42,818 bases of DNA, taken from contig CANRAO010000015.1 of assembly GCA_947628615.1 (NCBI GenBank), forward strand, positions 1 to 42,818, written 5' to 3'. Shown here in pieces: positions 1,302-19,836 of this stretch. The stretch's first letter is position 1; each line of letters opens with the position of its first letter. A program made the position numbers and the translations under genes. The notes under the pieces are model-generated. The model made no database searches, was not told the DNA's origin, and saw nothing but the letters and a program-made list of their open reading frames with translations. This stretch comes from an uncultured Clostridia bacterium. GTDB taxonomy: Bacteria; Bacillota; Clostridia; Oscillospirales; Ruminococcaceae.

Positions 1302-3284
1302 ATGATAAAGAAAAAAAGGTTGATTGCAGCGTTGATGATGGTTCTTGTTATGCTAGTTTCAATAACAGTTTCTTCTGCCAATGCAGCAGAAAAGAACACA
1401 TCAAATAGATTTAACGTCTGTTTCGTATTGGATTCAACTAATTCCTTATTGGATACAGATTCGGAAAAAATGCGTTATGATGCTACTAATATGTTTTTAG
1501 GACTTTTGGCAAATGACGGCAATTATGTAGGTAGTGTTATATTTAGCGGCGGAGTGATTAAAAAAACAGATGTTGTTCCAATAAATGGACCTGACGATAA
1601 GGTTGAGGTAGAATCCGATTTGGAAACGAAGGAACAATTAGGTGCGACAACTATTGGAGCAGCTCTTGACCAAGCAGTAGATATGCTATTGGAAAAAGGG
1701 GATGAGAGTTTGTCCTCGGTCGTAATTCTTTTAAGTGATGGACAATCAAATAAGCAAAATGAAAAAGAAATGAATTCTCGTTCGGACGCACTTACAAAGG
1801 CAAAAAATAACAGTATTTCTGTATACACAGTTGCTTTGAATGCCGATGGAAAGGCTGATCTTGACGTTCTTGAGCAGATTGCGAATGCTACAGACGGAAA
1901 GTATAAAGAGGTAAAAAAAGCAGATGACCTAAAAGATGTATTTAGGGAATTTTATAATATGATATACTCTGCTGGAACTATAAAAATAATGGATGGTAAG
2001 ATTCCGGAGAATGGGGAAATTAGTGTTCCGTTCAATGTTCCATATCAAGGAGTTGAAGAGGTCAACATTATAATATCTTCTGATAGTAAAATAGAAAATT
2101 TATCATTAGTAAAACCAGACGGTAAAGAAATGGGTGAAAACGTAGTTGAAGGAATTACCACTGTAGCAAAACGTTTTTCTATTACCAAAATAGCAAAGCC
2201 AAATGGCGGAGAGTGGACCTTGAAAGGGATAGGTACACCAGGATCAAATATAGAGATTGATATGGTTTACAATGATAGTATAACCATAGATACTGAATAT
2301 ATCAATAAAGAGAAATACTCAATAAATGATACGGTTTCTATTACTGGATTTATTTTAGATGATGGAAAAAAGATGTCATCTGGCTATGAGGATTACACTG
2401 CAAAACTAATTCCCGATAATGACAAAGGAAAAGAAATTCCAATGAAAATAAGTGATAACTCTTTCAAGGGTGATGTCACATTTGATAAAGAAGGCACTTA
2501 TACCTATCACATGGAATTGGAAGGTAATGGCTTAAAAAAATACACAGAAACAGCAAGTATTAAACTAAATGTCGGTAATTATGCCCCAGTAGTAAATGAT
2601 GATGCAAAAGATTTCAGTAAACATTTTTGGGTTTTTCCATTTTTCACAAAAACCTGTGAAGTGGATTTGTCCAAGGTGGCTACAGATCCAGATGGTGACA
2701 AACTAACATTTAATGTTTCATCTTCAACTTTTAAGGATACTACATACGAAATCCAAGATAATAAACTTGTAATAAAAGATTTTTATGATCTTTCTAAAGG
2801 AATTTGTATGGTTAGAGCTGTAGATGAAAAAGGTTCGTATGTTGAATTTAATGTTACAGTTTTGCTAACAAACGTTGGAATAGCAACTCTTATAGTTGTT
2901 GGTTCAATATTACTAATCGTTTTGATTCTTGCGTTTCTAAAACTAAGACATGATTTATTATTAAAGTTTTCTGGAACAATAAAAATTGATTCTTTTGGTG
3001 ATGCATCAGTTGTAAATAACGAAATGAGTCCAATAAGAGGTAGAGTAAAGTTAAGTGCGTTTGGAGTAGTTCTGCCTGGATTGGACGCTAATAAATGTTA
3101 TTTTCAAGCTACGGGAAAGAATTTCATATATTTGATTTCAAAACAGAAGTTATATTCTTCGGCTGGAACGCAACTTAAAAAGATTAAGATTGATGGAACA
3201 GGTTATGAAGTTACAGTATCCACAACATCGGATATGGAAAATGGTTTATATATATCTTTTGAGTCACTTTTAAATGTATATTAA
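1302..3284 (+). CDS. Membrane-anchored extracellular vWA-domain protein
   Basis: 660 aa. A signal peptide (residues 1-29, ending in SSANAAE) is followed by a von Willebrand A domain (about 36-220). Metal-site residues are visible: DSTNS at 44-48 (DxSxS with T for the middle S), GATTIG near 114-119 and LLSDG with D146. Two or more beta-rich, Ig/cadherin-like segments follow (about 225-425, and 430-520 containing ATDPDGD). One transmembrane helix lies at about 524-546 and a ~110-residue cytoplasmic tail follows. The vWA domain should therefore face outside, with the tail able to meet the cytosolic proteins encoded next. It is first in a tightly spaced cluster and the next ATG is only 17 bp away. 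A role as surface sensor or anchor is inference. Confidence 0.85.
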   Translation: MIKKKRLIAALMMVLVMLVSITVSSANAAEKNTSNRFNVCFVLDSTNSLLDTDSEKMRYDATNMFLGLLANDGNYVGSVIFSGGVIKKTDVVPINGPDDKVEVESDLETKEQLGATTIGAALDQAVDMLLEKGDESLSSVVILLSDGQSNKQNEKEMNSRSDALTKAKNNSISVYTVALNADGKADLDVLEQIANATDGKYKEVKKADDLKDVFREFYNMIYSAGTIKIMDGKIPENGEISVPFNVPYQGVEEVNIIISSDSKIENLSLVKPDGKEMGENVVEGITTVAKRFSITKIAKPNGGEWTLKGIGTPGSNIEIDMVYNDSITIDTEYINKEKYSINDTVSITGFILDDGKKMSSGYEDYTAKLIPDNDKGKEIPMKISDNSFKGDVTFDKEGTYTYHMELEGNGLKKYTETASIKLNVGNYAPVVNDDAKDFSKHFWVFPFFTKTCEVDLSKVATDPDGDKLTFNVSSSTFKDTTYEIQDNKLVIKDFYDLSKGICMVRAVDEKGSYVEFNVTVLLTNVGIATLIVVGSILLIVLILAFLKLRHDLLLKFSGTIKIDSFGDASVVNNEMSPIRGRVKLSAFGVVLPGLDANKCYFQATGKNFIYLISKQKLYSSAGTQLKKIKIDGTGYEVTVSTTSDMENGLYISFESLLNVY

Positions 3285-3300
3285 ATAAAGGAGAATTATT

Positions 3301-6300
3301 ATGTCTATTTACTCACAATTATTATTAAGCACAGGCGGAGGAATTGTTTCCAATACTTCAAAAGCAGATCAGTCAGGTGGTGCAACTGTAGCCATTGGAT
3401 TAGGTGGCACAGGAATAGATTGCTTGAAATTGCTTAAAAAAGAAGTATATACAAGAATAAAACCAGATAATTATGATCCAAAAAATGAAGGGGATTATGA
3501 TATTTCATTTGTTCCCAAATATGGACATATCAAATTTTTAGCAATAGATACTGATGTAACTTCCATAAAGCCCGAAACAAAAAAGAACGATAAAAATGAA
3601 GAAACAGTTGATGACTATGCTTGTATCGCAGATAGTGAATTTGAGGATATTTCCTGTAACAATATTCGTTCTGTGATATATGCTCATGAAAATTTGAATT
3701 TAAGAAACGATATGCAATGGTTATCCCATCAAGAAGTAGATGGTAAGTTACCTTTGTCCATAAAAGATACAACATATGGTGCTGGAGGCATTAGACAGGT
3801 TGGACGATTCCTTGCTCTTGATAAAGCAACAGTGATTATCAATCGTCTTACTTCTGTTATTTCTAGTGTGCGTGAGAATAGCAAGAAAGGACTAAATATA
3901 CATATTTTTTCAGGTATAGGAGGCGGAACTGGATCAGGAACATTTCTTGATATTTGTTACTTGCTTCGCAGAGTACTCACGAATGAGGCACTTGAGGGTG
4001 CGGTGACTGTTTGCGGATATTTTTTCTTGCCTGATGTAAATATGTCTAAATCTTACGTTAAAAATAATAATGAATTAAGAAGGCAAATACAAAGAAATGG
4101 CTTTGCAGCACTTAAAGAATTAGACTATTGCATGAATTTTGAAACCAATGGTGATTGTTGGGATCAGTATTATGGAAACAGTAGATTTACCACTCAGTTG
4201 CCACCAGTTGATTTGTGTCATCTGGTTTCGGCTCAGACTGAGTCTGGGTTCATTCCTTCCGACCCATATAATTATGCAATGAATGTTGTATGTGATTATG
4301 TTTTAGAGTTTACTGTTGATCAGGGTGGTGGCTTTGGTTTGGATTCACATATGGCAAATGTGAAAGGTCATCTACTTGATATAAATCTTAATGCTAGACA
4401 TGGAGCTAATTATCAATATGCAACACTTGGTGCATCTAATGCTATTGTACCATATCGTGAAATAACAACATATTTAGCAACCCACCTTTTTGAGAAATTT
4501 AGCTCTATTTACGAAAATACGCCTAATGACAGTGATACGAAAAAATTTGCGGATTCTGTAAAGTTGAGTTATGATGTGCTGTTTAGGGAGTTTATTAAGA
4601 AAGGTGATCCAGATGGTTTTGTTGGAAGGGCTAATTCTTTTGACAAGAGAAGTCTAAAAACCAATATGTCACCATTAATTAATGATTTTAATAACTATTT
4701 TGATGATATTGCTGGTAAGCAGGCAGAAAATGCAAGTGCAATGAAATCGTCACTTGATAAAAGTTATAATCCTCAACAAGCGGGTGAAAATGCAACATCA
4801 ATTATAAGCAAAATCTTTTATGAACTCTATCAGGAATGTTTATGCGATCCTAAATCAGGTCCATTTTTCAGTATGAATTTGTTGAGTTCGGTGCAGTCTA
4901 AAGATTTAATTGATATTGTTAAGGGACTAGAACAAACTAACAGAGAAAAATACGATCATTGTAGTGTTTGGGCATCGAAACATTATCAAACCATGGAAAA
5001 CGCTAAAGCTGCATGGTCTAGTAAACAAAGCAGAAGGAATACCGAAGCATTTATTAATGCAATGTTAGATTACTATACTATGCAAGCTAAATCTGACGCA
5101 TATGAACGTTTTGGAAAAGTATTAGATAAATTGAAGGCACAAATAGATGAATTAGCTACATATTATTTCTTGCCTTTATGCACAACACTCAATAATTTGA
5201 AAGAGACATTTGCGGAAAATCTGTCTACTATAAACTTAATGTTTTCAAATAGAAATGAAAGTACTTCTTATTTGAAACCGATTATGGAGTTATCTAGCCT
5301 AAAAGAAAGCATGGATAAGGAATTAGAGTCGATCAATGTAGATAATGCTATAAACAAGCTGATTACGCAACTAGTTCTGAATCCTAAAGCATGGATTGCG
5401 GGTGATCCCAACAAAGTTAGTAGTTTTATTATAAGATTTATGAATCAAGATGTATTTAGTGAGTTTGCTAATAGAACTGTCTTAAGCTATTTAAAGATTA
5501 AATTTAACACAACTAATGATTTAAAAATTACAGAGAAGCTCAAAGACACAACAATTAAGGATTTAGCGTTGGGTGCAGATCCATTACTTTGGAAAACTGG
5601 CGGATATAATCTTGACAATACATCAACTATACAGTACTTATCAGTGCCTTACAATATTAAAGTTGTTGTAAATGCAGCCCAAGAATATGCTAATCAAGCA
5701 GGCGATTTAATGGTAAGAAAAAGCAACATATCTGATAGAATTTCATTTATGAAATTTTATTGTGGTGTGCCACTCTTTGCATATCAGGGTTTATCTGTTT
5801 ATGAAGAAATATATGCGACAAACCCCTTTCCAGGTACACATCTGTATGAACGTGGTTCTATAGATAAGCAGTGGGATACCTATCTTCCTGCTCCGATTCC
5901 AGTAAGTTTTCAGATAACAGGACGTAATATTCCCAACGAAGTTGTAAAATATCAGGAAACGGCGAAGCAAGTGCTAGATGATTGTATAAAGTATGGGATC
6001 GCCCAAAATGAGAACAACAGCATAATCATTCGCAAATATGATTTTGGAGAAATGAATAACTATTTAGATCAGATTAAATCATATGTATCCAAGGGAAGAA
6101 ACAGTGATGCTGAAAACATTTTTAAATTGATGGAAGAAAAGTTTAACATCTTAAATTTTACAGTAATGGAAACTAAATCCGTATCGGGCTCGAAGAATGG
6201 TGAGTACATTGCTTCAGATCGTTTTGTTTCTTCGCCCAAAATACGAGATTTTGCTGTTTCTGCATTAGATGCTTATAGAGTAGCTGAAAAAGTGCTTAAT

Positions 6301-6762
6301 ACTGTACATGATTATTTGCCAGACAAAGAATCTTTTGAACTGTTTAAGGATTCCTTGTTTATTGGACTGATTAAGTACAAGCCTCTATTTGATGTTAAAC
6401 TTATTGTTAAAGATGAAAATGGATTAACTATTGAGGAAGAAGTGCTGTGCAATTCGCAGATGAAAAACAAAAAGGTTCCTTACTACCAAGCCTATTTAAC
6501 TTTTCAAGAATTGTCAACACGAACAAAAGATACTATCAAAAATGTTCGTGATAAGTATTTTGAGTTTAGTGACAATAATTTAAATACATTTATCAAAGAA
6601 AACATGAATGAACTGGCAAATGATCTGGAAGATGCAGATTACATTAGTGATTTACAAACCGATGCGAAAACGTTAGAGTCCCCTGGTGAAGTTATTTCTT
6701 TTCTTAGTGATTTAGTAAGTGAGTATAGATCATTTACTAGAATGGTTAAAAGGATACGTTGA
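3301..6762 (+). CDS. Large tubulin-like GTPase (Tubulin_2-type)
   Basis: 1153 aa, no signal peptide. The N-terminal third carries tubulin/FtsZ-superfamily nucleotide motifs: GLGGTG at 33-38 after a beta strand, FLAIDTD at 79-85, GAGGIRQVGR at 160-169 and the signature GGGTGSG at 207-213, followed by an LxxxCYLLRR helix and a VCGYFFLPD strand. These fit GTP binding and possible filament formation. About 800 further residues, mainly helical with charged coiled stretches, have no equivalent in FtsZ or TubZ, so this belongs with the large bacterial tubulin-like proteins rather than the division protein. The start has AAAGGAG eight bases upstream. Immediate linkage to the vWA gene and to two unknown proteins suggests they act as a complex. 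Confidence 0.85.
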   Translation: MSIYSQLLLSTGGGIVSNTSKADQSGGATVAIGLGGTGIDCLKLLKKEVYTRIKPDNYDPKNEGDYDISFVPKYGHIKFLAIDTDVTSIKPETKKNDKNEETVDDYACIADSEFEDISCNNIRSVIYAHENLNLRNDMQWLSHQEVDGKLPLSIKDTTYGAGGIRQVGRFLALDKATVIINRLTSVISSVRENSKKGLNIHIFSGIGGGTGSGTFLDICYLLRRVLTNEALEGAVTVCGYFFLPDVNMSKSYVKNNNELRRQIQRNGFAALKELDYCMNFETNGDCWDQYYGNSRFTTQLPPVDLCHLVSAQTESGFIPSDPYNYAMNVVCDYVLEFTVDQGGGFGLDSHMANVKGHLLDINLNARHGANYQYATLGASNAIVPYREITTYLATHLFEKFSSIYENTPNDSDTKKFADSVKLSYDVLFREFIKKGDPDGFVGRANSFDKRSLKTNMSPLINDFNNYFDDIAGKQAENASAMKSSLDKSYNPQQAGENATSIISKIFYELYQECLCDPKSGPFFSMNLLSSVQSKDLIDIVKGLEQTNREKYDHCSVWASKHYQTMENAKAAWSSKQSRRNTEAFINAMLDYYTMQAKSDAYERFGKVLDKLKAQIDELATYYFLPLCTTLNNLKETFAENLSTINLMFSNRNESTSYLKPIMELSSLKESMDKELESINVDNAINKLITQLVLNPKAWIAGDPNKVSSFIIRFMNQDVFSEFANRTVLSYLKIKFNTTNDLKITEKLKDTTIKDLALGADPLLWKTGGYNLDNTSTIQYLSVPYNIKVVVNAAQEYANQAGDLMVRKSNISDRISFMKFYCGVPLFAYQGLSVYEEIYATNPFPGTHLYERGSIDKQWDTYLPAPIPVSFQITGRNIPNEVVKYQETAKQVLDDCIKYGIAQNENNSIIIRKYDFGEMNNYLDQIKSYVSKGRNSDAENIFKLMEEKFNILNFTVMETKSVSGSKNGEYIASDRFVSSPKIRDFAVSALDAYRVAEKVLNTVHDYLPDKESFELFKDSLFIGLIKYKPLFDVKLIVKDENGLTIEEEVLCNSQMKNKKVPYYQAYLTFQELSTRTKDTIKNVRDKYFEFSDNNLNTFIKENMNELANDLEDADYISDLQTDAKTLESPGEVISFLSDLVSEYRSFTRMVKRIR

Positions 6763-6774
6763 TATTTTTAGAAT

Positions 6775-6822
6775 GGAGGTGGCAGGCTTTATTAGTTTTT
6801 TATAAAGCTTGCCAAAATAATT
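6775..6822 (+). promoter_or_regulatory. Ribosome site separated from start by a hairpin
   Basis: GGAGGT (6775-6780) lies 42 bases before the ATG at 6823, too far for a normal ribosome site. The bases between form a 12-bp stem (6781-6792 with 6802-6813, one G-U pair, 9-nt loop). If folded, the remaining distance to the ATG is nine bases (6814-6822), which is ideal. This looks like a structured spacer that lets the downstream gene be translated, or controls when it is. Confidence 0.55.
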
Positions 6823-8721
6823 ATGAGTATGAGTGTTAATTCAATGATAAATGACTCTATTGCTCTTGTAAAAAGAGAAACTATATCCAAACATTTATTT
6901 AATGCCCCGAGCAATCCATGCATTATTGTTTATTTAACAGATAAGTCAGCTTCTTTTTATGAGAGCGTTTGTGATGGCCTTCATAAATATTGGGGTAATC
7001 GAGTTGATTTTATTCCTCAATTATTATACAAAGAAGGAAAATTCTATTCTTGTAGCTCATCAGAAGAAATAGATATTTATGAAATTATAGAAGATATTAG
7101 AAGCTTTAAAGAAAACATCTTTGAAGATAAAAAGAGTATCAAAATATATTTTTATTTGGATACATACTGTATTGATGATCTTGAGAATTTTAAAGAGTTG
7201 TACAATTGCGTAGATGTTTTCCATTCTATTCGAATGGTGAAATTTTTGACGATGCTGTTTTATGTGGAAGATGCTTCGATAAAGTCACAAAAAGTTTCGT
7301 TAAGAGAAAAGTTTGCTGAATTTATTATTAGTGATGATAATCGCAATAAGTATAATTCTGTATTTTGGTTGAGTACAAATCTTTATGGAGGAGATGTATT
7401 AAAGGATGAAAGAGAATCAGAAAATTATTCTTTGTCAACGAGCCTAATTTTTTTATCAAATAATAATGATGAAGATGGAATATCTTACAGGGGGAATAAT
7501 ATGTTTTCTATGTATTCTAATTCATCTGCATATACAGTTTCATATATCAATCTTTGCAAACCTATAAAGGCAATTGTAGCTAATACTTATGTTTCTATGT
7601 TGAAGTTCCTAATGAATGAAATGTTTATGGTTAATAAAAAGCTAATTATAGAAGAAAGTGACATATTATCAGCTTTATGCATAGGAACAAATGTTGATAG
7701 TTCTTTATCAAATCAAATTTACGAGCGAATTGTTGAGAAGATTCCTAAGGTTAGTGATCTTCGTTCTCTGCCGAACATAAATGATCAACCAATATCTATT
7801 ACTGGAAGAGATGGAGTGGACTTTAATTGCATTACAGATTACCTTAATAAGGTGACTTTAGATTGTTGGATGGATTTTTATAATTATAATTACATTAGAA
7901 TAATTAATGAGTTGTTGGAGAACGATTATAGTGACTCCAATATCAAGAGTACGATAATAACTAGTTTGCTCAACAAATTTAGTTATATTGAGTTAAGTCA
8001 ACTTTTAGAGTCAAAAGCCATTAAAGCCATAGAAGAATGCTCTCCTGCAGCACATACAACAAGAGGTGTAAATTCATTAAATGAGTTGGATGGTTTTATA
8101 AAGGATCAAGTTAAAAACGATATCTTTAACTTATTAAAACCATTATATAAAAATGTCATACGAGAAGTAGATGCATTATCTGAAAAGTATATAGAAGATT
8201 TAGAAATATTAGAAGTTAATGTTCAAGAGCAAGCAAAGATTAAAAATGATGATTTATCAGGTAATATAGCATCTTATTACGATAATATTGTAAGAACCTA
8301 TATGCAAAGTTCAGATAATATACAGAGAATAAATGATGATTTTAAAAATTACCATGAAAATATGGATGAAGTTTATTTACGCCTAAGTTCTTTGTTTTCT
8401 CGTATTATCGAATCTTATCCCATTTATAAGTCCCCTTTTGAGGAAGAGTTAAACGCTAGACTCAGTTCAGTGAATGCAGGTCAGGCAAATCAATTTATTG
8501 CGAGATCTCTTCAGAATCATACAAAAATTAAAAATCAGATTCGAATTAATTCTTCTTCCGAGCCATATGTGTTAAATACATATTATCTGGTAAATGGTAA
8601 CTCAGATTACGTTAATATATTAGATGCTGATAAAAATTCTGTTATTAATACAGGTATTAGCAATTCCGCTGAAACTATAGTATTATACTCTTGCAGTAAA
8701 GAAAACATCATATTAAGGTAG
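6823..8721 (+). CDS. Uncharacterised 632-aa partner of tubulin-like protein
   Basis: Not recognised. 632 aa, soluble, no signal peptide or clear membrane segment. The N-terminal ~250 residues alternate hydrophobic strands (PCIIVYLTD near 32-40, IKIYFYLD near 107, VFWLSTNLYGG near 183) with helices, giving an alpha/beta, Rossmann-like look but without a P-loop. The middle and C-terminal half are helical, with a coiled-coil-like charged segment around 440-520 and a short strand-rich tail. It lies between the tubulin-like gene and the 242-aa gene, eight bases from the latter, with an unusual hairpin before its start. A cytosolic cofactor or regulator of the tubulin-like protein is the simplest guess. 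Confidence 0.55.
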   Translation: MSMSVNSMINDSIALVKRETISKHLFNAPSNPCIIVYLTDKSASFYESVCDGLHKYWGNRVDFIPQLLYKEGKFYSCSSSEEIDIYEIIEDIRSFKENIFEDKKSIKIYFYLDTYCIDDLENFKELYNCVDVFHSIRMVKFLTMLFYVEDASIKSQKVSLREKFAEFIISDDNRNKYNSVFWLSTNLYGGDVLKDERESENYSLSTSLIFLSNNNDEDGISYRGNNMFSMYSNSSAYTVSYINLCKPIKAIVANTYVSMLKFLMNEMFMVNKKLIIEESDILSALCIGTNVDSSLSNQIYERIVEKIPKVSDLRSLPNINDQPISITGRDGVDFNCITDYLNKVTLDCWMDFYNYNYIRIINELLENDYSDSNIKSTIITSLLNKFSYIELSQLLESKAIKAIEECSPAAHTTRGVNSLNELDGFIKDQVKNDIFNLLKPLYKNVIREVDALSEKYIEDLEILEVNVQEQAKIKNDDLSGNIASYYDNIVRTYMQSSDNIQRINDDFKNYHENMDEVYLRLSSLFSRIIESYPIYKSPFEEELNARLSSVNAGQANQFIARSLQNHTKIKNQIRINSSSEPYVLNTYYLVNGNSDYVNILDADKNSVINTGISNSAETIVLYSCSKENIILR

Positions 8722-8729
8722 GTCATATT

Positions 8730-9458
8730 ATGAAAGTTAAAGCTGTAAAAAGAGAATTGGATTATTATATTTTAGAAGTTAGATCTAAAACGGATAACAA
8801 GGGTGATGAGTATTTAACATGGGATTATTCAAATGCATCATATTTTATAGTGCTAAAGTTAGATGTAAGTTTTGACATAAATCAAATTAACACCAATGAG
8901 TTTATTACTAAACTTTGTTCAAAGTTGTCTGATTCATTTGATACGAGAGGAAAGCCTTATCAGGGAGAAATTGAAATAGACGGTGGCATAAAAATAAATA
9001 TCATATCTTTAAATCAATACAAAAGGACAAATAGTTGGTATTATGACCAATCACCTATGAGGGTTGTGGTATTGTGTGGTGAACAAAGGGATAATACAAT
9101 TAAAATCCATATGCCAGAGGATATATCTATGTGCTCCACTTTAATCCCAGAAAAAGTAAAAATATACACGATAAAAGAAAACCAAATTTCCTCGGCATCT
9201 GGACTGTTGAACGTATTTAGAAGAATATTTGGGAAACAAAAAAAACCTAAAAAAGATTTGTATACTGTTAAAATATCAAATCTGAACCAAAATTACAGTG
9301 TTGGAATCTATTATAGGATAAAAGGACAAAACGTCTCTTATCCAATTACCAGAAAAATGTCTTTGAATACTTTTAAGGTGGAAGTCCCGATTGGAAAAGA
9401 GTTAGAGTTTTTTGTAATGCGTGAAAAAATGAAAGAATATGTGTTGTCTGTTAATTAG
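8730..9458 (+). CDS. Uncharacterised 242-aa beta-rich protein
   Basis: Not recognised. 242 aa, no signal peptide or transmembrane helix. Residues 1-140 are rich in beta strands (YYILEVRSK, YFIVLKLDVSF, MRVVVLCGE). A basic linker follows (FRRIFGKQKKPKKD, about 164-177), then a second small beta domain to the end (YTVKISN, YSVGIYYRI, FKVEVPIGKELEFFV). The start has AAGGTAGG overlapping the stop of the previous gene, so the two are probably translationally coupled. It closes the first block of the cluster, and the following 535 bp contain only a broken kinase gene. The basic linker could bind membrane, nucleic acid or an acidic partner. Confidence 0.5.
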   Translation: MKVKAVKRELDYYILEVRSKTDNKGDEYLTWDYSNASYFIVLKLDVSFDINQINTNEFITKLCSKLSDSFDTRGKPYQGEIEIDGGIKINIISLNQYKRTNSWYYDQSPMRVVVLCGEQRDNTIKIHMPEDISMCSTLIPEKVKIYTIKENQISSASGLLNVFRRIFGKQKKPKKDLYTVKISNLNQNYSVGIYYRIKGQNVSYPITRKMSLNTFKVEVPIGKELEFFVMREKMKEYVLSVN

Positions 9459-9479
9459 TATAGCGGATGTATTAAACTA

Positions 9480-9871
9480 ATGGATTTGATTGAAAAAGAC
9501 CGATGGCAGATATGATGTTTATGCATTAGTCTATACGGATGATATTTTTCAAACAAATCGTTGTTCTAACACTACAAATAATCAATATGTTTTTGTAAAA
9601 GTATTTATTAATAATACACATAGAAATATTTAAAGCAAAAAGTGAGATGAAACACAGTTTAGATGTATTAATGACAATAAATAAACCTAGCGTTAAAAAG
9701 TATTGGATTATGGTTTAGGTGATAATTTTCAGTATATTGTTAGTGAATATATAGACGATATTTCTTTATATAGGTTTCTTATAGCTACAAAAAAGGTATT
9801 AAAGTGCTGGGAAGGACTCATAAAAAAACATATAAAAGAAATTGTGTGAATCTATTAAAGCATTAAAAATC
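9480..9871 (+). pseudogene. Decayed protein-kinase gene, N-lobe remnant
   Basis: This fills most of the 535-bp gap between the two blocks of the cluster. Three frames in turn give protein-kinase landmarks. 9511-9630 reads YDVYALVYTDD...YVFVKVF, matching the beta-3 VAxK strand. 9632-9715 reads HSLDVLMTINKPSVKKY, matching helix C and the following loop. 9703-9846 reads LDYGLGDNFQYIVSEYIDD, matching strand beta-5 and the hinge. 9845-9871 gives CESIKALK, like helix E. There are at least three frameshifts and no catalytic loop or C-lobe. It is thus a broken copy of a real Ser/Thr-kinase-like gene once encoded between the tubulin-like and GTPase parts. The ATG at 9480 is only a plausible old start. 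Confidence 0.65.
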
Positions 9872-9993
9872 TAATTTATGGCTCTATTTCATCACTTTTT
9901 ATCACGATTTGGAGAACAAAAAATAGTAAGCAATAAAGAAATAAAACAGATATAAAAAAATAATATCAATATTTCCAAGGTAGGAGACAGCAT

Positions 9994-11490
9994 ATGGATT
10001 ACAAATTTAGATGCCCTTATTGTTTTGGAGAAATGTCACATAAGGATGTTTTGTTTAGAGGTGTAACGACATTCAGACCAGAGGAATTCGATGTGTCGGG
10101 ACAAGGAAGAATGCGTTCGGATATAGAAATTATCCAAGATGATAATGAAAGAAACAGATTGCTTACTGAATATGATAGAAGGGAATATTTCTCTGCTAAA
10201 AGAGATGATGTTTACAATAATTGGTATAGTGATCATAAATTTGGTGAAACATCAGAGAATCCGGGCAGTGATGCTATTCCAGTGTATGATAGACCGATAA
10301 TTAAACCACATGATCACGGAACAAGTGGCTTAATATATGATGAGGATGGTTTTGCTATAGAACTTAGAGATCCGTGGGATGAGCCGACAAGGGAAAGAGT
10401 TTGTAAACATTGTCATAATCCACTTCCACTTGGATATGGAAAGTATCCAGTGCGTTATATTAGTGTAATAGGTATTTCAGGTGCGGGAAAAACAGTATAT
10501 CTATCTAAATTGATTCAAAATATAAGTGAATATACAGCACATATAAAATTAGCAACAACACCTTCTCCAAGTTCAGTTGAATTTGTTAGAAAAAATCCTG
10601 TTAAAGAGGGTGCTCAGCTTCCTATTGCTACATTCAAGAGTGCATTTGAACAACCGTTATTTTATAACATTAAATTTGGTAATGGACATAATGAAACTTT
10701 TGTTATTTATGATATTGCTGGAGAAAACTGCGAACAAAGAAATAATTTATTAAGATATGGTAAATTTGTGCTTAATTCTAATGGTATCATATTGTTAATA
10801 GATCCTGTCAAGGAATTGGGCATAAATGGTGGGAAAGGAGATAGTAAGTTAGATATCGTTTTAGATAACATTAACGATTATATTGGCAAGAAGGGACTAA
10901 ATGATATTCCGTTAGCAGTATGTATCTCTAAGAGTGATTTAATGAAAGATACACTAACTAGCGAATGTTTTTTTGATAAAGTGAGAACGGAGAATTTCCA
11001 ATTCAATGCTAAAGATTATAATGAAATTAGCAAAGAATTAAGTGAGTTTTTGCAAGAAAATGCACTAGCAACAAAAATGAAACTCAATTTATATTATAGT
11101 TGTTATAACTTTTTTGCTTTTACAGCGTTGGGTTGTGCAACGAAAAAGACATATATGTGTGATGAATTTGGTGAAGAGTATGAAGCTGAAATTCCTAAAA
11201 ATCCACCAAATCCTAAAAGAATAGAAGAGCCGCTGTTTTGGTTATTTACTCAATTTGGTTATGTTAAAGCAACGGGTCCTATATACACGCCTAAAAATGA
11301 AGAGGCATTGACTGCACGTTCAGAAAAATCGACAGAAATAAAAGAATTACAGGAACAGCTTGATAGATATCCTAGAATCTGTATTAGATCAAAAGATAGA
11401 AGAGAAAGAGAGCAATTAGAATTAAAGATTAAAAAATTACAGAATGAAATAGCTAAATTAGATCAAGAGATAAAAAGGTTCGCACAATAA
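9994..11490 (+). CDS. Zinc-ribbon GTPase, DO-GTPase2-like
   Basis: 498 aa, cytosolic. A split zinc ribbon (CPYC at 7-10 and CKHC at 137-140) brackets a ~125-residue insertion and leads directly into a P-loop GTPase domain. Walker A is GISGAGKT (160-167), the DxxG motif is DIAG (240-243) and the base-specificity motif is SKSD (312-315). A Lys/Glu-rich coiled coil ends the protein (about 440-498). The layout matches GTPases called DO-GTPase2, found beside GAP1-type proteins in predicted bacterial conflict operons; this match is from memory. The ATG at 9994 follows GGTAGGAGA. It opens the second block of the cluster, 9 bp before the GAP1-like gene, its likely direct partner. Confidence 0.75.
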   Translation: MDYKFRCPYCFGEMSHKDVLFRGVTTFRPEEFDVSGQGRMRSDIEIIQDDNERNRLLTEYDRREYFSAKRDDVYNNWYSDHKFGETSENPGSDAIPVYDRPIIKPHDHGTSGLIYDEDGFAIELRDPWDEPTRERVCKHCHNPLPLGYGKYPVRYISVIGISGAGKTVYLSKLIQNISEYTAHIKLATTPSPSSVEFVRKNPVKEGAQLPIATFKSAFEQPLFYNIKFGNGHNETFVIYDIAGENCEQRNNLLRYGKFVLNSNGIILLIDPVKELGINGGKGDSKLDIVLDNINDYIGKKGLNDIPLAVCISKSDLMKDTLTSECFFDKVRTENFQFNAKDYNEISKELSEFLQENALATKMKLNLYYSCYNFFAFTALGCATKKTYMCDEFGEEYEAEIPKNPPNPKRIEEPLFWLFTQFGYVKATGPIYTPKNEEALTARSEKSTEIKELQEQLDRYPRICIRSKDRREREQLELKIKKLQNEIAKLDQEIKRFAQ

Positions 11491-11498
11491 AGGGGACA

Positions 11499-13799
11499 AT
11501 GATTTATATGAAATGCTATAAGTTAACTTTAGCAAGAATTGGAAAACAGGAGAACTGGGCTGGTTGGAGAATCGCAGGAATGTCAAAAGACACTCCTAGA
11601 CAACTTTTGGAGAGTTTTGAAAGTTTTCACGGAAGCAAGAATCATGTTGTTAGTTCTTTAAACAAGCCAGTTGAGTTATACGAGGTTGCTGAACATAGGG
11701 GGAATTTGTTTGTTTCAAATATTAGATTCGGTACTAAGGATATGCTGGGACGTCCATCTTTTTCTGTAAAAGGTATAGGGTTTCCAATTTCTGAAAATCC
11801 AGATCTTTTTATACATCCTGAGTCGTTTTTAGAATTATCTAATGATGACTTTAGTTTTCAGTTAAAAAATTTGTATTATGAAAATAGAAATCTCAAACAA
11901 GAGTACATGACTGGGGCAAATGTAGTAACTATACATGATAGTGAATTTGGGTTTAAAAGACCATTATCTATTGAACAGATTATAGGAAGATACTTCTCTG
12001 ATAAAGAGAAGTTAGAAAGTTTTGCTCGCTCTGTATTTTGGGCAGGAAATAATAAACAGACCACACTGTATTTAAAGGTAGCAAATGGTTTTAAGGATTA
12101 CTTCGAAACAATGTATTTAGTGTATAGTTTCTTACCTTTTAATATGAGATCAAGTTTTAGTTTTAGGACTTATAATCTTCGTAATCTTTCAGGAGTAAAA
12201 ATCGTTTTTAGTGAAGAAACTCCTTTTGGAAAGTACTATGACATTGTGTCTGGTAAAAACAACATATTTACAGACAGTAATATACTAAATAATTCTCGAA
12301 AGTTATCATTTATTGATTATATTCTTGAACATATATATGATGAGTCGATTGAAGAATACTTTAAGTTGCTACAGAGTTCATTAGATAAAATGGGTCAATC
12401 TAAAACGACAGATTTAAACACAATTGAGCTGGCTCATAATATGCTTATGGCAAGTAACGAAGATGATAATGACTTAACAGATATGGAAATTCTCAAAAAA
12501 TTTCAAGAGTATGTTTCTCTGGACTATACTAATGAGGTTGTTGATGAAAATATAGTAAAATATTTAAGCCTCATTATTAAAAAGAATATCAAACTGAATG
12601 ATACATTGATGAGTAAATTTGATGTTAAGTTAAAAAGCACTAGTTATATTCCGTTAATTGAATTGGGATATGAATACAAAGCTACTAAACTTTTAGAAGC
12701 TTCTGATAAGCAAAAATCATTTGAATTCTTATATTCCATAGAAAATTACAAAGATGTACACGACAAATATATCAAATATCTTTTAGAGTTTGTTGATGGT
12801 TCTGCTTTTCTGGACGAATATTATAGTGTATTTTATGCAGATAAAATTGTCAAGAATATTGATGACCTTTGTATGTTTTATGAAAAAACTAAGCAGCTTC
12901 CCGAAAGAACACGTATTTATAGAAAAATAAATGATTTTGCTATTAGTTATTCTATGAAATGTGTGCAGTTAATGCTTAAGAAACACATTGACTTTAATTA
13001 TGAGAATCACATCTATCTTCTCATCAATAAACTTGGACTTGCCTCAACGTCAAGATCTATTACAGATGAGATGAAAAGGAAATATTGGAGTGAATTTAAG
13101 TTTAATAAATTTGACTTTAATAGAATTAATGATTATTTGACTTATCTCCCTTATGAAAATTGGCAGTTCAATTTAATAAAAGGAATAAAGTGTGTTATCA
13201 ATGAGCTGAGTTATCAGAAACCTGAGAGCGTTAAAAGATTTAATAGTTATATTAGAGGACAAATTGTAAGAGGTGTCAATTTGTCTTCCGATGAGCAGGA
13301 TTACCTTAGGAAAGAATTTCAAAGATATTGTTTGGTTCATGCCAAAAAAGAGTGCTCTCTTGATTTTTGGCTTGATGTTGCAAAGCTTTTCTCAATTCAA
13401 CAATATATAAAGTTTATATTTAATAATAATATTACTGTTTTTACTAATCCCGAAATATTTAAACTCGAATTTCTGATGAGTAAATTATATGAATATAGAA
13501 CAGTGGATGATGTCTCTAAGCAAACATATAAAAACTTTTGTGAAAATTTTTTAGAATATATTGATAGTCATAGACAGTATTATGAGTTGGGGAGAATTTT
13601 AATTAAAATTCAAAACAGCGATAGAAATAGAAATGGTCGCAGTTCGTCCAAAGTTGTTGAGGATTCTATAACCCATGAAGAGTCCTCAAATTCAAAAAAT
13701 AAATCAGGAATTAGAGGATTTATAAAGAAAGGTAAAGAGGGGGTTAAAGGCATTTTTCCAGGTAAAAAAGGAAAGTACATGAAGCAAACCAAGAATTGA
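11499..13799 (+). CDS. GTPase-associated protein 1 (GAP1)-like protein
   Basis: 766 aa, cytosolic. The N-terminal domain begins CYKLTLARIG, followed by WRIAGMSKDTP near 23-33 and GRPSFSVKGIGF at 84-95, which fits the GAP1 N-terminal pattern of strand, 'SxGxP', then 'GRxGNxxxH'. A middle segment YSFLPFNMRSSFSFRTY (209-225) corresponds to the 'LPxxLRxxLSFxTY' motif of the same proteins. The remaining ~500 residues are helical and the last 60 are strongly basic. GAP1 proteins are known only as neighbours of DO-GTPases, and this gene directly follows such a GTPase. ATG 11499 and ATG 11508 are both possible starts; the GGGG at 11492 is 3 or 12 bases away, neither ideal. Confidence 0.65.
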   Translation: MIYMKCYKLTLARIGKQENWAGWRIAGMSKDTPRQLLESFESFHGSKNHVVSSLNKPVELYEVAEHRGNLFVSNIRFGTKDMLGRPSFSVKGIGFPISENPDLFIHPESFLELSNDDFSFQLKNLYYENRNLKQEYMTGANVVTIHDSEFGFKRPLSIEQIIGRYFSDKEKLESFARSVFWAGNNKQTTLYLKVANGFKDYFETMYLVYSFLPFNMRSSFSFRTYNLRNLSGVKIVFSEETPFGKYYDIVSGKNNIFTDSNILNNSRKLSFIDYILEHIYDESIEEYFKLLQSSLDKMGQSKTTDLNTIELAHNMLMASNEDDNDLTDMEILKKFQEYVSLDYTNEVVDENIVKYLSLIIKKNIKLNDTLMSKFDVKLKSTSYIPLIELGYEYKATKLLEASDKQKSFEFLYSIENYKDVHDKYIKYLLEFVDGSAFLDEYYSVFYADKIVKNIDDLCMFYEKTKQLPERTRIYRKINDFAISYSMKCVQLMLKKHIDFNYENHIYLLINKLGLASTSRSITDEMKRKYWSEFKFNKFDFNRINDYLTYLPYENWQFNLIKGIKCVINELSYQKPESVKRFNSYIRGQIVRGVNLSSDEQDYLRKEFQRYCLVHAKKECSLDFWLDVAKLFSIQQYIKFIFNNNITVFTNPEIFKLEFLMSKLYEYRTVDDVSKQTYKNFCENFLEYIDSHRQYYELGRILIKIQNSDRNRNGRSSSKVVEDSITHEESSNSKNKSGIRGFIKKGKEGVKGIFPGKKGKYMKQTKN

Positions 13800-13823
13800 A
13801 AATTATCATTATGAGGTGAAAAA

Positions 13824-14795
13824 TTGAGCTTGTTTTATGATGAAAAAAAGTTTATAGTTAGCATAACTTGTAGTGACAATGTTTATCTAAAATCTGGACG
13901 TGACAAAACTTTCAATAATATGTTTGGAAAAGAAACTTTGCCAATAATAAAACATTTTAAAAGTCAAGAGATGTATATATTGTGTCCTTATGAGTTGCTT
14001 AAAAAAGAGCGTACCGCTTTTTATCTGAATGCAATTGCCAAGCCCATGTATCACGGTTTTGTTTGGCCCGTTGATATGGTTAATACTGGTGACTTAGTGT
14101 TTAAACGAAAAGTCGGTAGTGAAAACACTTACCACAGTTTGTGGAAATATTCAAAAGAAAATTTTAATGGATTTGAAGATAAAAAGATTAAATTAGCAAT
14201 TCTTAACTTTCTGCTTAATTTACAAAACTTTTATGATAATGGTTATGTTTATAGATATTGGGATGAACGTAATATTTATATTGGAGAAAAAACTAATGAA
14301 GTAATTTTTCAATTTAACAATAACATTTCAAAAAAAGATATCATTATAACATTAAACAAGACTGATTACTATACTGAACTAACTGATCCTTATATGTATT
14401 ATCATGGATGCAATTATGACTTTTACTCCGATATGTATTCTTTTCAATCTTTATTATTTAAGCTATTAATTGGTATATATCCTTTTGAGGGAGAAGATAT
14501 GACAGGGTGTGAACGAAATGGAACGCAGACGGAGCTTAATGGTTGGATAATGGAGTATTTGAGAAATATTTACTTCGTTTTTGATGACGGAACATCTAGA
14601 AATCACATTGGCATTATGGTAGATGATATTCCTCGAGTGAGAAGGTGGGAATCATTAACACCTAATCTTAAAAGAATGTTTAAGAATGTATTTGCTCGGT
14701 CTAATGTTTTAAGGGAAACTGATAATATTGTATATTATTCGCCTAGAGAATGGCTGGAAGAATTACAGAGATTTGATTTTAGTCTAAAGAATTAG
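13824..14795 (+). CDS. Protein-kinase-fold protein, predicted pseudokinase
   Basis: 323 aa. Kinase-fold landmarks are present: FVWPVDMV near 79-86 as in a bacterial kinase subfamily; helix E LLNLQNFYDNGYV; the catalytic-loop equivalent YRYWDERNIYI (143-153); and helix F YSDMYSFQSLLFKLLIGIYPFEG (201-223, D203 kept). Aligned without gaps to HRDLKPENILV, the catalytic Asp is Tyr145 while the metal-binding Asn150 remains. The DFG equivalent is QFN (163-165). No glycine-rich loop or clear VAIK lysine is seen. It is therefore probably catalytically dead and acts as a scaffold or allosteric part. The start is TTG with GAGGTG five bases upstream. Confidence 0.65.
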   Translation: MSLFYDEKKFIVSITCSDNVYLKSGRDKTFNNMFGKETLPIIKHFKSQEMYILCPYELLKKERTAFYLNAIAKPMYHGFVWPVDMVNTGDLVFKRKVGSENTYHSLWKYSKENFNGFEDKKIKLAILNFLLNLQNFYDNGYVYRYWDERNIYIGEKTNEVIFQFNNNISKKDIIITLNKTDYYTELTDPYMYYHGCNYDFYSDMYSFQSLLFKLLIGIYPFEGEDMTGCERNGTQTELNGWIMEYLRNIYFVFDDGTSRNHIGIMVDDIPRVRRWESLTPNLKRMFKNVFARSNVLRETDNIVYYSPREWLEELQRFDFSLKN

Positions 14796-14805
14796 AGAGG
14801 GAAAT

Positions 14806-15837
14806 ATGAATAGTATCATGCAATCACAGTTAAAGGAGTTTGTCATCCGTGAAGGAAAGAACGAATTGATTAACGAAAAAAAATTGACAGCTTTTTTTTC
14901 TGACAACAAGATACAAACCGACTTGCATAGACTATTGTTGGTTTTATCTTGTGATATTACTAAAGATTTTGTGTTACATACGGAAAAGAATTCTACTAGG
15001 GTGGAACTTAATAATCTAATTATGTCAGTAGTTAGAATGACAGGGTTAAGAACAGTTGTTGTTAGAGAATTAATTGCGATGATTTGTTATTCTATTGGAG
15101 TTAATTATAATTACGAAATAGTTACCTCTTATGATCCGGTTCAAGAAACATTTCAACCAACATTAAATACACTGGAACCTCAGATAATTAAAAAGAAATT
15201 AGATGCAGCACAAGAACAGCAGAACGCTAAAAGTTATGATAAAGCAGCAGAGATATATGAAGAACTTGTAAAGGCTGGCTCAAGTGTGGCAATGTATCAA
15301 CTTGGAATTATGTATATAGATGAATATAAAGAATTATCTAAAGGGAAAACTTACATTTTTCAACGACAGTCAGAGCAATTAAAGAGAGGTATAAAACTAT
15401 TAGAGATGGCTGCAGAAAATGGTCATACAAAAGCTAGAATAGAGTTAGGAAATTATCACTATCTATATGATAAAAGTCCAAAGGGTTTGAAGAAGGCCTA
15501 TGCTCTCTATTCGTCTCCTGGAATTCCTTCAACAAATTGCAAAATAAAAAGCAGGATAGTAGAAATAATTAATCAAGAAAAAACCAATTTTTTTGTGACG
15601 ATATTTGGCGGTGTTTTAACTATTTTAATGTGGATTTTCTTGATTATTTGTGGAAACTCAATTCATCATAATTCTTTTTTATTTGTATGGGGAATTGTTC
15701 TAACTATTTTACCAACTATAATTTATGGCTTGTTGGTATTTGCTTTTTTTAAATATAAATATGTTTACATAAAATCGTGCGTGTTTGCAATGCTTTTGAT
15801 ATGGCTAATTTATCCATTTATTTTAGCAAGTAGTTAA
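14806..15837 (+). CDS. Sel1-repeat membrane protein of GTPase cluster
   Basis: 343 aa. An all-helical N-terminal domain of ~105 residues (LHRLLLVLSCDITKDF, LRTVVVRELIAMICYSIGVNY) resembles a helical adaptor found in clostridial signalling proteins. Two Sel1-like/TPR repeats follow: AAEIYEELVKAGSSVAMYQLGIMY (148-170) and GIKLLEMAAENGHTKARIELGNYH (195-219). The C-terminus has three predicted transmembrane helices (about 262-283, 291-317, 321-341). It would place protein-binding repeats on the cytoplasmic side of the membrane, which suits a docking role for the GTPase, GAP1-like protein or pseudokinase. GAGAGG precedes the ATG by six bases, and the previous stop is 10 bp upstream. Confidence 0.7.
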   Translation: MNSIMQSQLKEFVIREGKNELINEKKLTAFFSDNKIQTDLHRLLLVLSCDITKDFVLHTEKNSTRVELNNLIMSVVRMTGLRTVVVRELIAMICYSIGVNYNYEIVTSYDPVQETFQPTLNTLEPQIIKKKLDAAQEQQNAKSYDKAAEIYEELVKAGSSVAMYQLGIMYIDEYKELSKGKTYIFQRQSEQLKRGIKLLEMAAENGHTKARIELGNYHYLYDKSPKGLKKAYALYSSPGIPSTNCKIKSRIVEIINQEKTNFFVTIFGGVLTILMWIFLIICGNSIHHNSFLFVWGIVLTILPTIIYGLLVFAFFKYKYVYIKSCVFAMLLIWLIYPFILASS

Positions 15838-15851
15838 GTGAGGTGCATAGA

Positions 15852-17162
15852 ATGACGGATAAGATAATTAAATTTGTTCCTGCTAATATTTGTGTAATGA
15901 CTTTGTTATTAGTTGTTTTAATTTCACATTATACAATAATAGGATTGATTGCATTTTTTGTTGGTTCTTTATTTTTGTTTTTAGGTACTCTGCTTGATAA
16001 TAATAAAGCAAATAATGGAGTAACCAGTAAACTGTCATTTATTATATTTATGATAGCGTTAACACTATTTGGAATGTGGATGCCTTTTATTTTTAAGAAT
16101 AAGTTTCATTTCGAACAGCTAAGACAAGTTAATACATGGGAAATAATTATATCGTTAGCTTTGGGATTCATATTTTTTATAATGGCAGGAGTGGATAAAT
16201 TTAAGCATTATGTAGTAAGACGTTGCTTAAAATATTCAGGTCAAGTTTTATTTTTGTTGGCAGGATACTATTTTTGGAATTTACCAATCAGTACATTTTA
16301 TCTAACTGTAATTACTGTTGTTTTATTCTTATTAACTGACTTGTTTTCAACAAAATATAAAATATACAATGAAAATGATTTTAAGGATATAAATAACGAC
16401 AAGGCTTTTTGGATGGCATTTTTTATAAATCTGTGTTTAATTGCCTTGAATTTGTTTTATAGAAAGTATTTTTTGAAATTCTTAACAAAAAACGCATTAA
16501 CGAAAATTATTGAGGACATTACTTCTGGTTTTAATGTTCCATTATTTATTATTTTAATGGTAACTTTAACTGCAGTGTTCATAGTTTTATATGAAAAACC
16601 AAAAGACTTTAGTTACAATATGACTTCTGATGCGTTCTTTTCGTTGTCTTTGGGCGGATTTGTTTTGTTGTTTCGAATTTATGAATCATATAGATGCATT
16701 GAGTCTTTTATTGTACTGTCTACGGGAGTTCTTCTATATTTTGTTTTTGGTTTTTCAATTTCTTCGACAAATTTGGGAAGCAGGAAAAATCCGGTTTATT
16801 ATCTACTTAGAATTAATAGAGATGTACCCATTTTTATTTCTTTGATTATAACGATTGTTACTATTCCAGCTATTATTTTCGCAAATAAAGGATATATAAT
16901 TCCCATTGTGTTCTTTGTGTGCTCTGCAATAATAATTTTGGCATCTTTTTTGAAATTTAAAAATACATGGGTAAAAATTAATATTCGTTGGCAAATAGCC
17001 CTTTTGTGTGTATTAGCATTTTCAATCAGTGTATCATTTGTAAATAAAAATTTAAATCGATCACTATTTTTTTTAATTTCATTGTTTTGTGTAAATTCGT
17101 TAGCTATTTGGACTATAGGTATACGTGAAGATATCAAAAAAAATATAACTATCAAGAGATAG
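15852..17162 (+). CDS. Polytopic membrane protein ending the cluster
   Basis: 436 aa from ATG 15852, chosen over GTG 15843 because TGAGGTG is then six bases upstream. There are roughly a dozen hydrophobic helices spread evenly along the protein, separated by very short loops with a few positive residues, and no large soluble domain. No transporter or enzyme motif is recognised. As last gene of the cluster, 14 bp after the Sel1-repeat membrane gene, it may form the membrane base of the assembly, a channel, or the effector acting on the membrane. The last two are speculation. Base composition is as AT-rich as the rest of the cluster. Confidence 0.65.
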   Translation: MTDKIIKFVPANICVMTLLLVVLISHYTIIGLIAFFVGSLFLFLGTLLDNNKANNGVTSKLSFIIFMIALTLFGMWMPFIFKNKFHFEQLRQVNTWEIIISLALGFIFFIMAGVDKFKHYVVRRCLKYSGQVLFLLAGYYFWNLPISTFYLTVITVVLFLLTDLFSTKYKIYNENDFKDINNDKAFWMAFFINLCLIALNLFYRKYFLKFLTKNALTKIIEDITSGFNVPLFIILMVTLTAVFIVLYEKPKDFSYNMTSDAFFSLSLGGFVLLFRIYESYRCIESFIVLSTGVLLYFVFGFSISSTNLGSRKNPVYYLLRINRDVPIFISLIITIVTIPAIIFANKGYIIPIVFFVCSAIIILASFLKFKNTWVKINIRWQIALLCVLAFSISVSFVNKNLNRSLFFLISLFCVNSLAIWTIGIREDIKKNITIKR

Positions 17163-17456
17163 CACAGTTTGTAGTATGTTTTGCCTCTTGTAGTATCTCT
17201 TTAATTGCATTAGTATGATAAGGATAAAATAGCCGGTTTCTTTTTTATTGGTCTGTGGTTGAAGGAGGGCGAATTTTCAGCAGGAGTGGCATCGGTAAAT
17301 AAATATGTCATTTTCAACCCGTAGTCATACAAAATTACTGCAATTACTTTTACTACAATCGGCGGAGCATATAAACTGAAGATGTATAAAGAACTGCTTA
17401 ATTCGGTACAATTATGCAGGAAGAATTTTATGCAAAAATACAGGCGTTACTAAAAG

Positions 17457-17588
17457 AAAATTGCTGCTATTATTACTCATGTGGCATTTTATGCCACATG
17501 GTCTAAGGCTTGGAATGTATTCATTATGGTAAAAGGAGTATGGGCAGAAGAAACACCAACCAAACATTTGAAAAAATCAGACACATAG
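17457..17588 (+). pseudogene. Carboxymuconolactone decarboxylase-family remnant
   Basis: The last 43 codons of a reading frame encode KIAAIITHVAFYATWSKAWN and then VWAEE before a TAG. This is the typical C-terminal helix pair of small CMD/AhpD-like proteins ('ITHxAFYAGWPKAW...VWxE'). No matching upstream part with the catalytic cysteines is found in frame, so only the end survives. Its TAG overlaps the following terminator hairpin. Confidence 0.65.
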
Positions 17589-17615
17589 AAATAAAAATCT
17601 ATGTGTCTTCTTTAT
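17579..17615 (+). terminator. Rho-independent terminator
   Basis: An 11-bp perfect stem (17579-17589 with 17598-17608, arms AGACACATAGA and TCTATGTGTCT) with an 8-nt loop is followed by TCTTTATCGTTT. It ends transcription through the CMD remnant and separates the accessory cluster from the site-2 protease operon. Confidence 0.7.
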
Positions 17616-17673
17616 CGTTTCTATATTAATTGATTTATAGTTGATTGACTTCATATTTTTCCTGTTATTTTTC

Positions 17674-17702
17674 TTGAATTTTACGTTTGATTGTTGTATA
17701 AT
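17674..17702 (+). promoter_or_regulatory. Promoter of site-2 protease-scpAB operon
   Basis: TTGAAT (17674-17679) and TATAAT (17697-17702) are separated by exactly 17 bp, 35 bp before the ATG at 17738. No operator palindrome is seen. Confidence 0.65.
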
Positions 17703-17737
17703 TAAATAAATATATCAATTTATGCAGGTGTTATGTT

Positions 17738-18412: not shown

Positions 18413-18442
18413 TAAATAGCAAACCGAAAGGTATTAGTTTTA

Positions 18443-19156: not shown

Positions 19157-19199
19157 ATATTTTTAGGCGATTTTTCCCAAATGAAAGGAATTTGCATAA

Positions 19200-19748: not shown

Positions 19749-19756
19749 AGCTGAGT

Positions 19757-19815: not shown

Positions 19816-19836
19816 AATTATAAAAAGTCTAACTAT

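Follow-up and report, generated by a model that had tools for sequence, protein, structure and literature searches.

The 42,818-nucleotide contig CANRAO010000015.1, which comes from an uncultured Clostridia bacterium of the Ruminococcaceae and is referred to below, at its full length, as the window, contains a cluster of nine open reading frames (ORFs), named here A to I, all of them on the + strand between positions 1302 and 17162. The cluster encodes a vWA protein (A), a Tubulin_2 protein (B) followed by a second protein of predicted tubulin fold (C), a probable FNIII-domain protein (D), a DO-GTPase (E), a GAP1-family protein (F), a putative pseudokinase (G) and two membrane proteins (H and I). 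This locus is very probably a variant, gained by horizontal transfer, of the tubulin-theme GAP1-N2/DO-GTPase systems, and sequence comparison supports the view that its nine genes form one functional unit, the order of which is conserved in other families of bacteria. A sequence-only reading of this DNA, made before the present analysis, had described nine same-strand genes, and they were recovered as such.

Conservation of the gene order

Relatives of the cluster were found by alignment of E on genome contigs, which gave 415; the best 80 were kept, 79 loci were used, and their ORFs were searched with iterative profiles built from each of the window proteins. The loci having been selected through the GTPase, co-occurrence among them is conditional on E. 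Many of them are cut by contig ends, and the ORFs were called mechanically, with opposite-strand ORFs masking real genes in some high-G+C loci (e.g., L082 and L086), so that the presence counts are lower bounds. It has to be noted that G478, G724 and G648 recur as L108, L077 and L082.

The full series A to I, ordered and on a single strand, is present in 12 of the 79 loci, and A to F in 24. All nine in the same order are present in G478 (L057/L058, where two B genes stand in tandem) and in G724 (L059), which belong to families other than that of the window. Outside the Paenibacillaceae, A, B, C and D were detected in 23, 28, 28 and 25 of the 29 loci with enough upstream DNA, and F, G, H and I in 39, 27, 22 and 21 of the 39 loci with enough downstream DNA (G, H and I together in 18); 14 of these 39 relatives also have an ORF of the vWA family downstream of E. 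Within the Paenibacillaceae, 22 loci with enough upstream DNA contain A (21), B (22) and C (22), with D in none, and the 21 with enough downstream DNA all contain F, with G, H and I in none. These loci (L118, L120-L143 and L145), of the form A-B-C-(vWA)-x-DO-GTPase-GAP1, share with the window the core order and the families A, B, C, E and F, but they differ from it in a second vWA gene, located between C and an ORF of ~213 amino acids (aa) unmatched by the D profile, and in the lack of G, H and I (21/21).

To be independent of the choice of loci by E, a further test used the C profile, which gave hits in 4 of the 394 genomes of the order, and all four adjoin a B homologue. That unrelated genes should stand side by side by chance has hardly any probability at all, this possibility being refuted by the conserved order in other families, with nothing found in its favour. 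The single membrane-linked machine put forward earlier stands as far as it implies one unit, by conserved order and membrane association. Its further step, in which an outer signal would pass to a cytosolic tubulin-like polymer gated by the GTPase, is a conjecture.

The family alignments include the window protein plus 65 of 68 C ORFs (alignment A2), 33 of 37 G hits, two of the 37 being fused GTPases (A3), 51 of 78 F ORFs (A4), 40 of 41 D ORFs (A5), 36 of 61 B ORFs of 1050-1320 aa (A6), 18 of 19 I ORFs of 400-700 aa (A7) and 25 of 27 H ORFs of 280-420 aa (A8).

The cluster had also been described as two tight blocks. The gap behind this description exists, D and E being separated by 535 bp, the largest spacing among 42 D-E pairs measured (median 21; the pairs include the window itself and a few loci fetched twice), and F lies directly downstream of the GTPase, at 8 bp. 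However, the two-block appearance would be due to the decay of a kinase-like domain in the D-E gap (see below), and two independent operons, considered as a candidate arrangement, were rejected on account of this domain. Promoter-like and terminator-like sites occur in the region at chance frequency (terminator-like: 6 found, 5.7 expected). The starts of G and of the last ORF, I, are less certain, because they are TTG and GTG, respectively.

Table 1. Features of the cluster and their positions in the window
Feature	Positions	Strand	Basis
A: vWA protein	1302..3284	+	PF00092; hydropathy
B: Tubulin_2 (FtsZl1) protein, GTP-binding loops and long C-terminal part	3301..6762	+	PF13809; T1/T4 motifs
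C: second protein of predicted tubulin fold, without GTP-loop motifs	6823..8721	+	predicted fold
D: probable FNIII domain, residues 2-142; putative second beta domain	8730..9458	+	predicted fold
Putative decayed N-terminal kinase-like domain of GTPase E	9459..9993	+	matching stretch 9493-9780, internal stops, frame of E
E: zinc-ribbon DO-GTPase	9994..11490	+	PF19993; invariant residues
F: divergent GAP1-family protein	11499..13799	+	BLAST/Pfam via relatives
G: putative pseudokinase	13824..14795	+	Pkinase match; incomplete catalytic set
H: Sel1/TPR-like protein, three C-terminal hydrophobic stretches	14806..15837	+	Sel1 in relatives; hydropathy
I: polytopic membrane protein, 12 hydrophobic stretches	15843..17162	+	hydropathy; DUF805 in relatives
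Terminator-like hairpin near 17558, where homology with a sister species begins	17579..17608	.	site prediction

Components of the cluster and known systems

B, which the sequence-only reading had presented as a tubulin-like protein of 1153 aa, matches PF13809 (Tubulin_2) at an E of 6.7e-56 (190.5 bits, Pfam cut-off 27). In its family, the T1 motif is found in 37 of 37 members and the T4 glycines 205, 208, 209 and 211 are invariant (n = 37), with the strict T4 pattern in 25 of the 37; judged by these motifs, B is a Tubulin_2 family member with GTP-binding loops. Two B genes or gene pieces stand in tandem upstream of C in 8 of the 79 loci (L070-L073, L076, L091, L108 and L119), the copies being split into several ORFs in some of them, and in L078 (20742-21515) and L098 (18933-21458) a second B-type tubulin gene starts downstream of the cluster, which suggests tandem systems. 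In other Tubulin_2 loci (L018 in G002, L019 in G037 and L020 in G040), BLAST with the remaining window proteins found no match within the stretch read, and therefore not every Tubulin_2 gene belongs to the present system.

C and D had been left as two unrecognised proteins. It is true that the window copies of C, D, H and I have no Pfam match over cut-off; NCBIfam gave no match over its family cut-offs for any of the nine proteins, and PADLOC gave weak matches only, the best being PD-T4-6 at 4.6e-4, on G. Nevertheless, C is assigned a tubulin fold, returned by the tubulin-fold test on its predicted structure, and D a probable FNIII start. The assignment of C is due to the result of VIA-align 2, which only realigns Foldseek candidates and in which chain identities were taken from titles and lengths, and to the presence of a Tubulin_2 match in 12 of 66 C members. 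The predicted structure shows a long helix at 419-471, and identity to the listed rows of alpha, beta and gamma tubulin, BtubB and CetZ is 4-9% among the matches listed. Unlike these proteins, C is ~200 residues longer than tubulin and lacks GTP-loop motifs, neither T1 nor T4 being present by pattern in any of the 66 members (0/66). A profile comparison of B with C gave a probability of 38% (E 3.4e-4, 443 columns), which is supportive but weak. The top Foldseek rows also included a bacterial dynamin (E 0.039, rmsd 33.8), which, like human MxA, was set aside as a fold for C on rmsd and TM-scores; FtsZ, CetZ, tubulin and a number of vWA chains ranked lower. As for D, the FNIII domain predicted at its start would span residues 2-142; its profile has no match among PDB sequences, and a Pfam scan of 41 D members found no FN3 at E <= 0.1.

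The zinc-ribbon P-loop GTPase proposed earlier is confirmed in E, which matches PF19993 (DO-GTPase2) with 31.4 bits (Pfam cut-off 27) and has residues C7, C10, C137 and C140, together with D240-A242-G243-E244, invariant in the 7 of 7 sequences aligned. It shows the N-terminal zinc ribbon and the conserved Glu in Walker B by which PMC7159879 characterises these GTPases. As to mobility on plasmids or phages, the search for relatives of the GTPase gave one weak match on a Rhodococcus plasmid (23% identity) and none in phages. In the case of F, the GAP1-like motifs noticed before hold through its relatives: F is related to the F of L059 (BLAST E 4.4e-24), whose GAP1-M score of 26.6 bits exceeds the cut-off of 24. 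Among 52 family members scanned, GAP1-N2 (PF20013) was found in 26 and GAP1-M in 16 at E <= 0.01, the window F not being among the GAP1-N2 matches; its last ~60 residues look polar by eye.

In agreement with the proposed vWA protein with one transmembrane (TM) helix, A matches PF00092 over residues 38-215 (E 2.4e-15) and has hydrophobic stretches at 7-25 (signal/TM) and 527-545 (TM), followed by a tail of ~115 aa, from which we infer a vWA domain outside and a tail inside the cell. H had been presented as a Sel1-repeat membrane protein; its three C-terminal hydrophobic stretches and the Sel1 matches in 13 of 26 family members agree with this, but the window copy itself has no Sel1 match. The 12-TM protein was likewise found again, as the 12 hydrophobic stretches of I; DUF805 occurs in 2 of 19 members of its family, and the window copy matches no Pfam or NCBIfam family over cut-off.

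The DO-GTPase/GAP1 systems are the subject of a 2020 eLife paper, reportedly by Kaur et al. That paper (PMC7159879) defined these systems and predicted for them a role in conflict, as the sequence-only reading had stated. The cluster resembles the tubulin theme of its GAP1-N2 DO-GTPase system in the zinc-ribbon DO-GTPase, the GAP1 gene downstream, the tubulin protein or proteins, the vWA protein with a TM helix and, possibly, the FNIII-like protein. This theme is the largest described there, ~52% of GAP1-N2 neighbourhoods being centred on tubulin genes, with vWA and FNIII components, and an outline of the tubulin combination had been noted in 2010 (PMC2875224), so the earlier remark that a combination with tubulin is unusual does not hold: the combination is already known. 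As in the Firmicutes version of the theme, there are two tubulin-domain genes, recognised here by Pfam for B and by predicted fold for C; in that version, the tubulin-domain proteins have a C-terminal coiled coil and GAP1 a highly polar C-terminal extension (PMC7159879). Unlike that version, which has two vWA genes, one of them with YtkA, the window has one vWA gene among nine; the pair of vWA genes marks the Firmicutes version as described and not the whole GAP1-N2 system. Further differences from the systems of PMC7159879 are the very divergent GAP1 of the window, the addition of pseudokinase, Sel1-TM and 12-TM genes, a kinase domain that near relatives carry fused to the GTPase and that is apparently decayed in the window, and a second tubulin-fold protein without GTP-loop motifs, which the sections on the system do not mention.

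With the FtsZl1/Tubulin_2 operons of Makarova and Koonin (2010; PMC2875224), whose FtsZl1 proteins have vWA, GTPase and kinase neighbours, the cluster shares a large Tubulin_2 protein with a long C-terminal part, a vWA partner, GTPase and kinase genes, and membrane proteins. It differs from them in that no OmpA-family gene was recognised in the window and in that the kinase-like protein is inactive by motif; C, D, F, H and I are not among the components given for these operons in the relevant parts of that paper. There, T6-H7 elements could not be identified in FtsZl1 and filament formation was left open, and a later study (PMC9871819, 2023) set Tubulin_2 proteins aside as divergent.

Kinase-like domains and origin of the locus

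A kinase fold lacking its catalytic Asp had been proposed for G. This is the case in the window copy, which matches Pkinase below threshold (Pfam E 0.042) and has Tyr, Asn and Gln at the positions of the HRD Asp, the catalytic Asn and the DFG Asp, but not in every relative, the HRD column containing Asp in 12 of 34 members and the DFG column in 16; these columns are approximate because they come from a MAFFT alignment of divergent sequences. Pkinase is matched at E <= 0.01 by 5 of the 34 (best 4e-4), and in 0 of the 34 do the HRD Asp, the catalytic Asn and the DFG Asp occur together, so by its motifs G is classed as a pseudokinase with an incomplete catalytic set.

A second kinase-like sequence seems to have been attached to the GTPase. 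The E ORFs of L067 and L068, the two nearest relatives of the window (64% identity over E), measure 795 and 797 aa and share an N-terminal extension, which the G profile matches in these two GTPase ORFs only. In L067, the one of the two that was scanned, Pkinase (E 3.3e-15) and DO-GTPase2 (E 1.4e-6) are found in a single chain. The stretch between D and E aligns with the N-terminus of L067 E (30% over 102 residues, 27.7 bits) with internal stops, whereas shuffled sequences scored no higher than 22.7 (500 base shuffles) or 21.9 (500 dinucleotide shuffles); the E-value of the match is 1.1e-4 when the gap alone is searched and 0.016 for the whole window. On this alignment, the 535 bp are read as a decayed copy of the kinase-like N-terminal domain of the GTPase, and the fusion in L067/L068 indicates that this domain is physically tied to the GTPase in the lineage of the window.

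The stop-bearing remnant at 9493-9780 and a D-E gap that is the largest of those measured could also mean that the window holds a degenerating acquisition, which, deprived of the kinase-like part of its GTPase, may have ceased to function. This we consider improbable: all nine ORFs are open and have lengths typical of their families, the free-standing pseudokinase G remains, and the fused domain appears dispensable in the family because it is seen in the GTPase ORFs of L067 and L068 only.

Regarding its origin, the cluster has a G+C content of 0.309, compared with 0.388 in the rest of the window. The surrounding DNA was compared with 13 of the 14 other species of the genus, G003 being omitted because its contig starts ~1.1 kb ahead of ScpA; contig ends truncate several of the 13 stretches. 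Homology with sister species restarts at 17558 at the earliest (L147) and later in others, adjoining the hairpin of Table 1, and positions 1-1301 have no match in the 13 stretches, several of which are short. G007, the closest sister species by ScpA (98%), has different genes at the place of the cluster, and its genome contains no Tubulin_2 match. The E of the window falls together with L067/L068 in a tree of 53 E proteins (Paenibacillaceae thinned to 4), in which Lactococcus hodotermopsidis, Bifidobacterium callimiconis and a Coriobacteriaceae bin are placed among Clostridia; the pattern fits transfer, without being proof of it, and bins can hold foreign contigs.

Just upstream, at the contig end, an ORF at 87-704 is related to the first 91 profile positions of MobP3 relaxases (98 bits, cut-off 150) and may be a remnant of a mobile element. 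In G002, of the same genus, an unlike Tubulin_2 locus (L018, G002:C7:15200-35154, at 6552-19955) with a tubulin of 1224 aa and proteins of 680, 1493 and 698 aa lies upstream of the same M50-ScpA genes, and therefore two unlike tubulin loci share one variable slot. In another sister species (L147, G005:C12, 2688-19500), this slot is occupied by a prepilin-like gene run, identified by eye, which includes a 3154-aa ORF. After the cluster of L067, the region 17524-20375 contains a fragment that by eye resembles the 698-aa membrane protein of L018, a piece of an IS4/5-type transposase (DUF4096, E 4.8e-29) and a 425-aa fragment with a B-profile match, as though an insertion had broken up a second tubulin locus. 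A DUF1810-PARG fusion (E 3.3e-49 and 7.4e-38) is encoded at 18244-19575 of L061, near a more distant Tubulin_2/DO-GTPase locus from the family of the window.

Proposed mechanism and its alternatives

The most likely mechanism would be a membrane-tethered, GTP-controlled sensor-switch complex, with a response to invaders or envelope attack as its favoured purpose, a reading for which we find the balance to be about even. The vWA domain of A would bind a ligand or damaged envelope material outside the cell and signal through the single TM helix and the cytosolic tail. Judging from its family and from the adjacency of the two genes, the DO-GTPase with its GAP1 protein would act as the switch. B, which keeps the GTP loops, and C, without them, would form a scaffold in the cytosol, the assembly state of which is subject to the switch, and D would be an adaptor; for these parts, B is recognised by sequence, and C and D by predicted fold. 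The pseudokinase would serve as a non-catalytic allosteric adaptor, and H and I could carry the output at the membrane, for instance as altered permeability or remodelling. The purpose is the one predicted for such systems in PMC7159879.

Several points weigh against this sensor-switch interpretation. Since neither an effector enzyme nor a SLATT pore was recognised among the window proteins with Pfam, NCBIfam or PADLOC, the conflict reading is weakened, and PMC7159879 ties GAP1-N2 systems to multicellular hosts. In the open-access literature, no experimental study of such systems was recognised. Concerning its parts, the top Foldseek row for C is human MxA (E 5.1e-4, rmsd 29.6, TM 0.12), with FtsZ below it at an E of 0.04, so that Foldseek alone does not show C as a tubulin; the likeness of D to FNIII comes with middling Z values (up to 7.8), and the D profile has no match in Paenibacillaceae loci; the window F matches GAP1-M only, at an E of 0.066, below the Pfam cut-off; and, having lost the kinase-like domain of its GTPase, the window copy could perhaps be impaired.

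It is also possible, with clearly lower probability, that the locus encodes a machine for membrane remodelling or envelope maintenance, in which tubulin-family proteins assemble under the membrane and shape it or direct its traffic, anchored by the vWA and polytopic proteins. Membrane remodelling was the proposal of Makarova and Koonin (PMC2875224) for the FtsZl1 operons; three window gene products have hydrophobic TM-like stretches, and no toxin-like effector was recognised among the window proteins. However, the presence of these genes is patchy, with Tubulin_2 matches in 14 out of 398 genomes across the phylum, 11 of them over cut-off, and B-like proteins in 30 of 394 genomes of the order. 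This patchiness, together with the absence of the cluster from the closest sister species and the E tree, means that an accessory system fits better than a basic envelope function, and the response to invaders or envelope attack is moderately favoured over remodelling.

A reviewer of the 2010 paper (PMC2875224) suggested transport or signalling for the FtsZl1 operons. A complex for transmembrane transport or signalling with no relation to defence, its GTPase and tubulin parts regulating the 12-TM protein as a transporter, would agree with the 12 hydrophobic stretches of I; yet I went undetected in 18 of the 39 non-Paenibacillaceae loci with enough downstream DNA and in all 21 from the Paenibacillaceae, detection being a lower bound, and hence is hardly a core component, and its window copy matches no family over cut-off. 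This alternative is quite unlikely.

Within the sensor-switch reading, a more specific and doubtful proposal is that B and C make up an obligate heteromeric tubulin-family assembly under the membrane, with one GTP-binding and one nucleotide-free subunit, the assembly of which would be controlled by the separate DO-GTPase/GAP1 switch and the pseudokinase in response to the extracellular vWA sensor, giving a signal-gated cytoskeletal machine. We know of no characterised counterpart of a bacterial machine of this kind.

Tubulin_2 systems were predicted in 2010 and again in 2020, and their function has stayed a prediction, which the present variant makes testable. The handles that it offers are a pair of tubulin-family proteins, one apparently GTP-competent and the other GTP-less, and a natural kinase-GTPase fusion that links the kinase-like domain to the DO-GTPase, while the downstream membrane module G-H-I separates the gut-type loci from those of the Paenibacillaceae. 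If B and C assemble together, ordinary gut bacteria would possess a heteromeric tubulin-family machine coupled to surface sensing.

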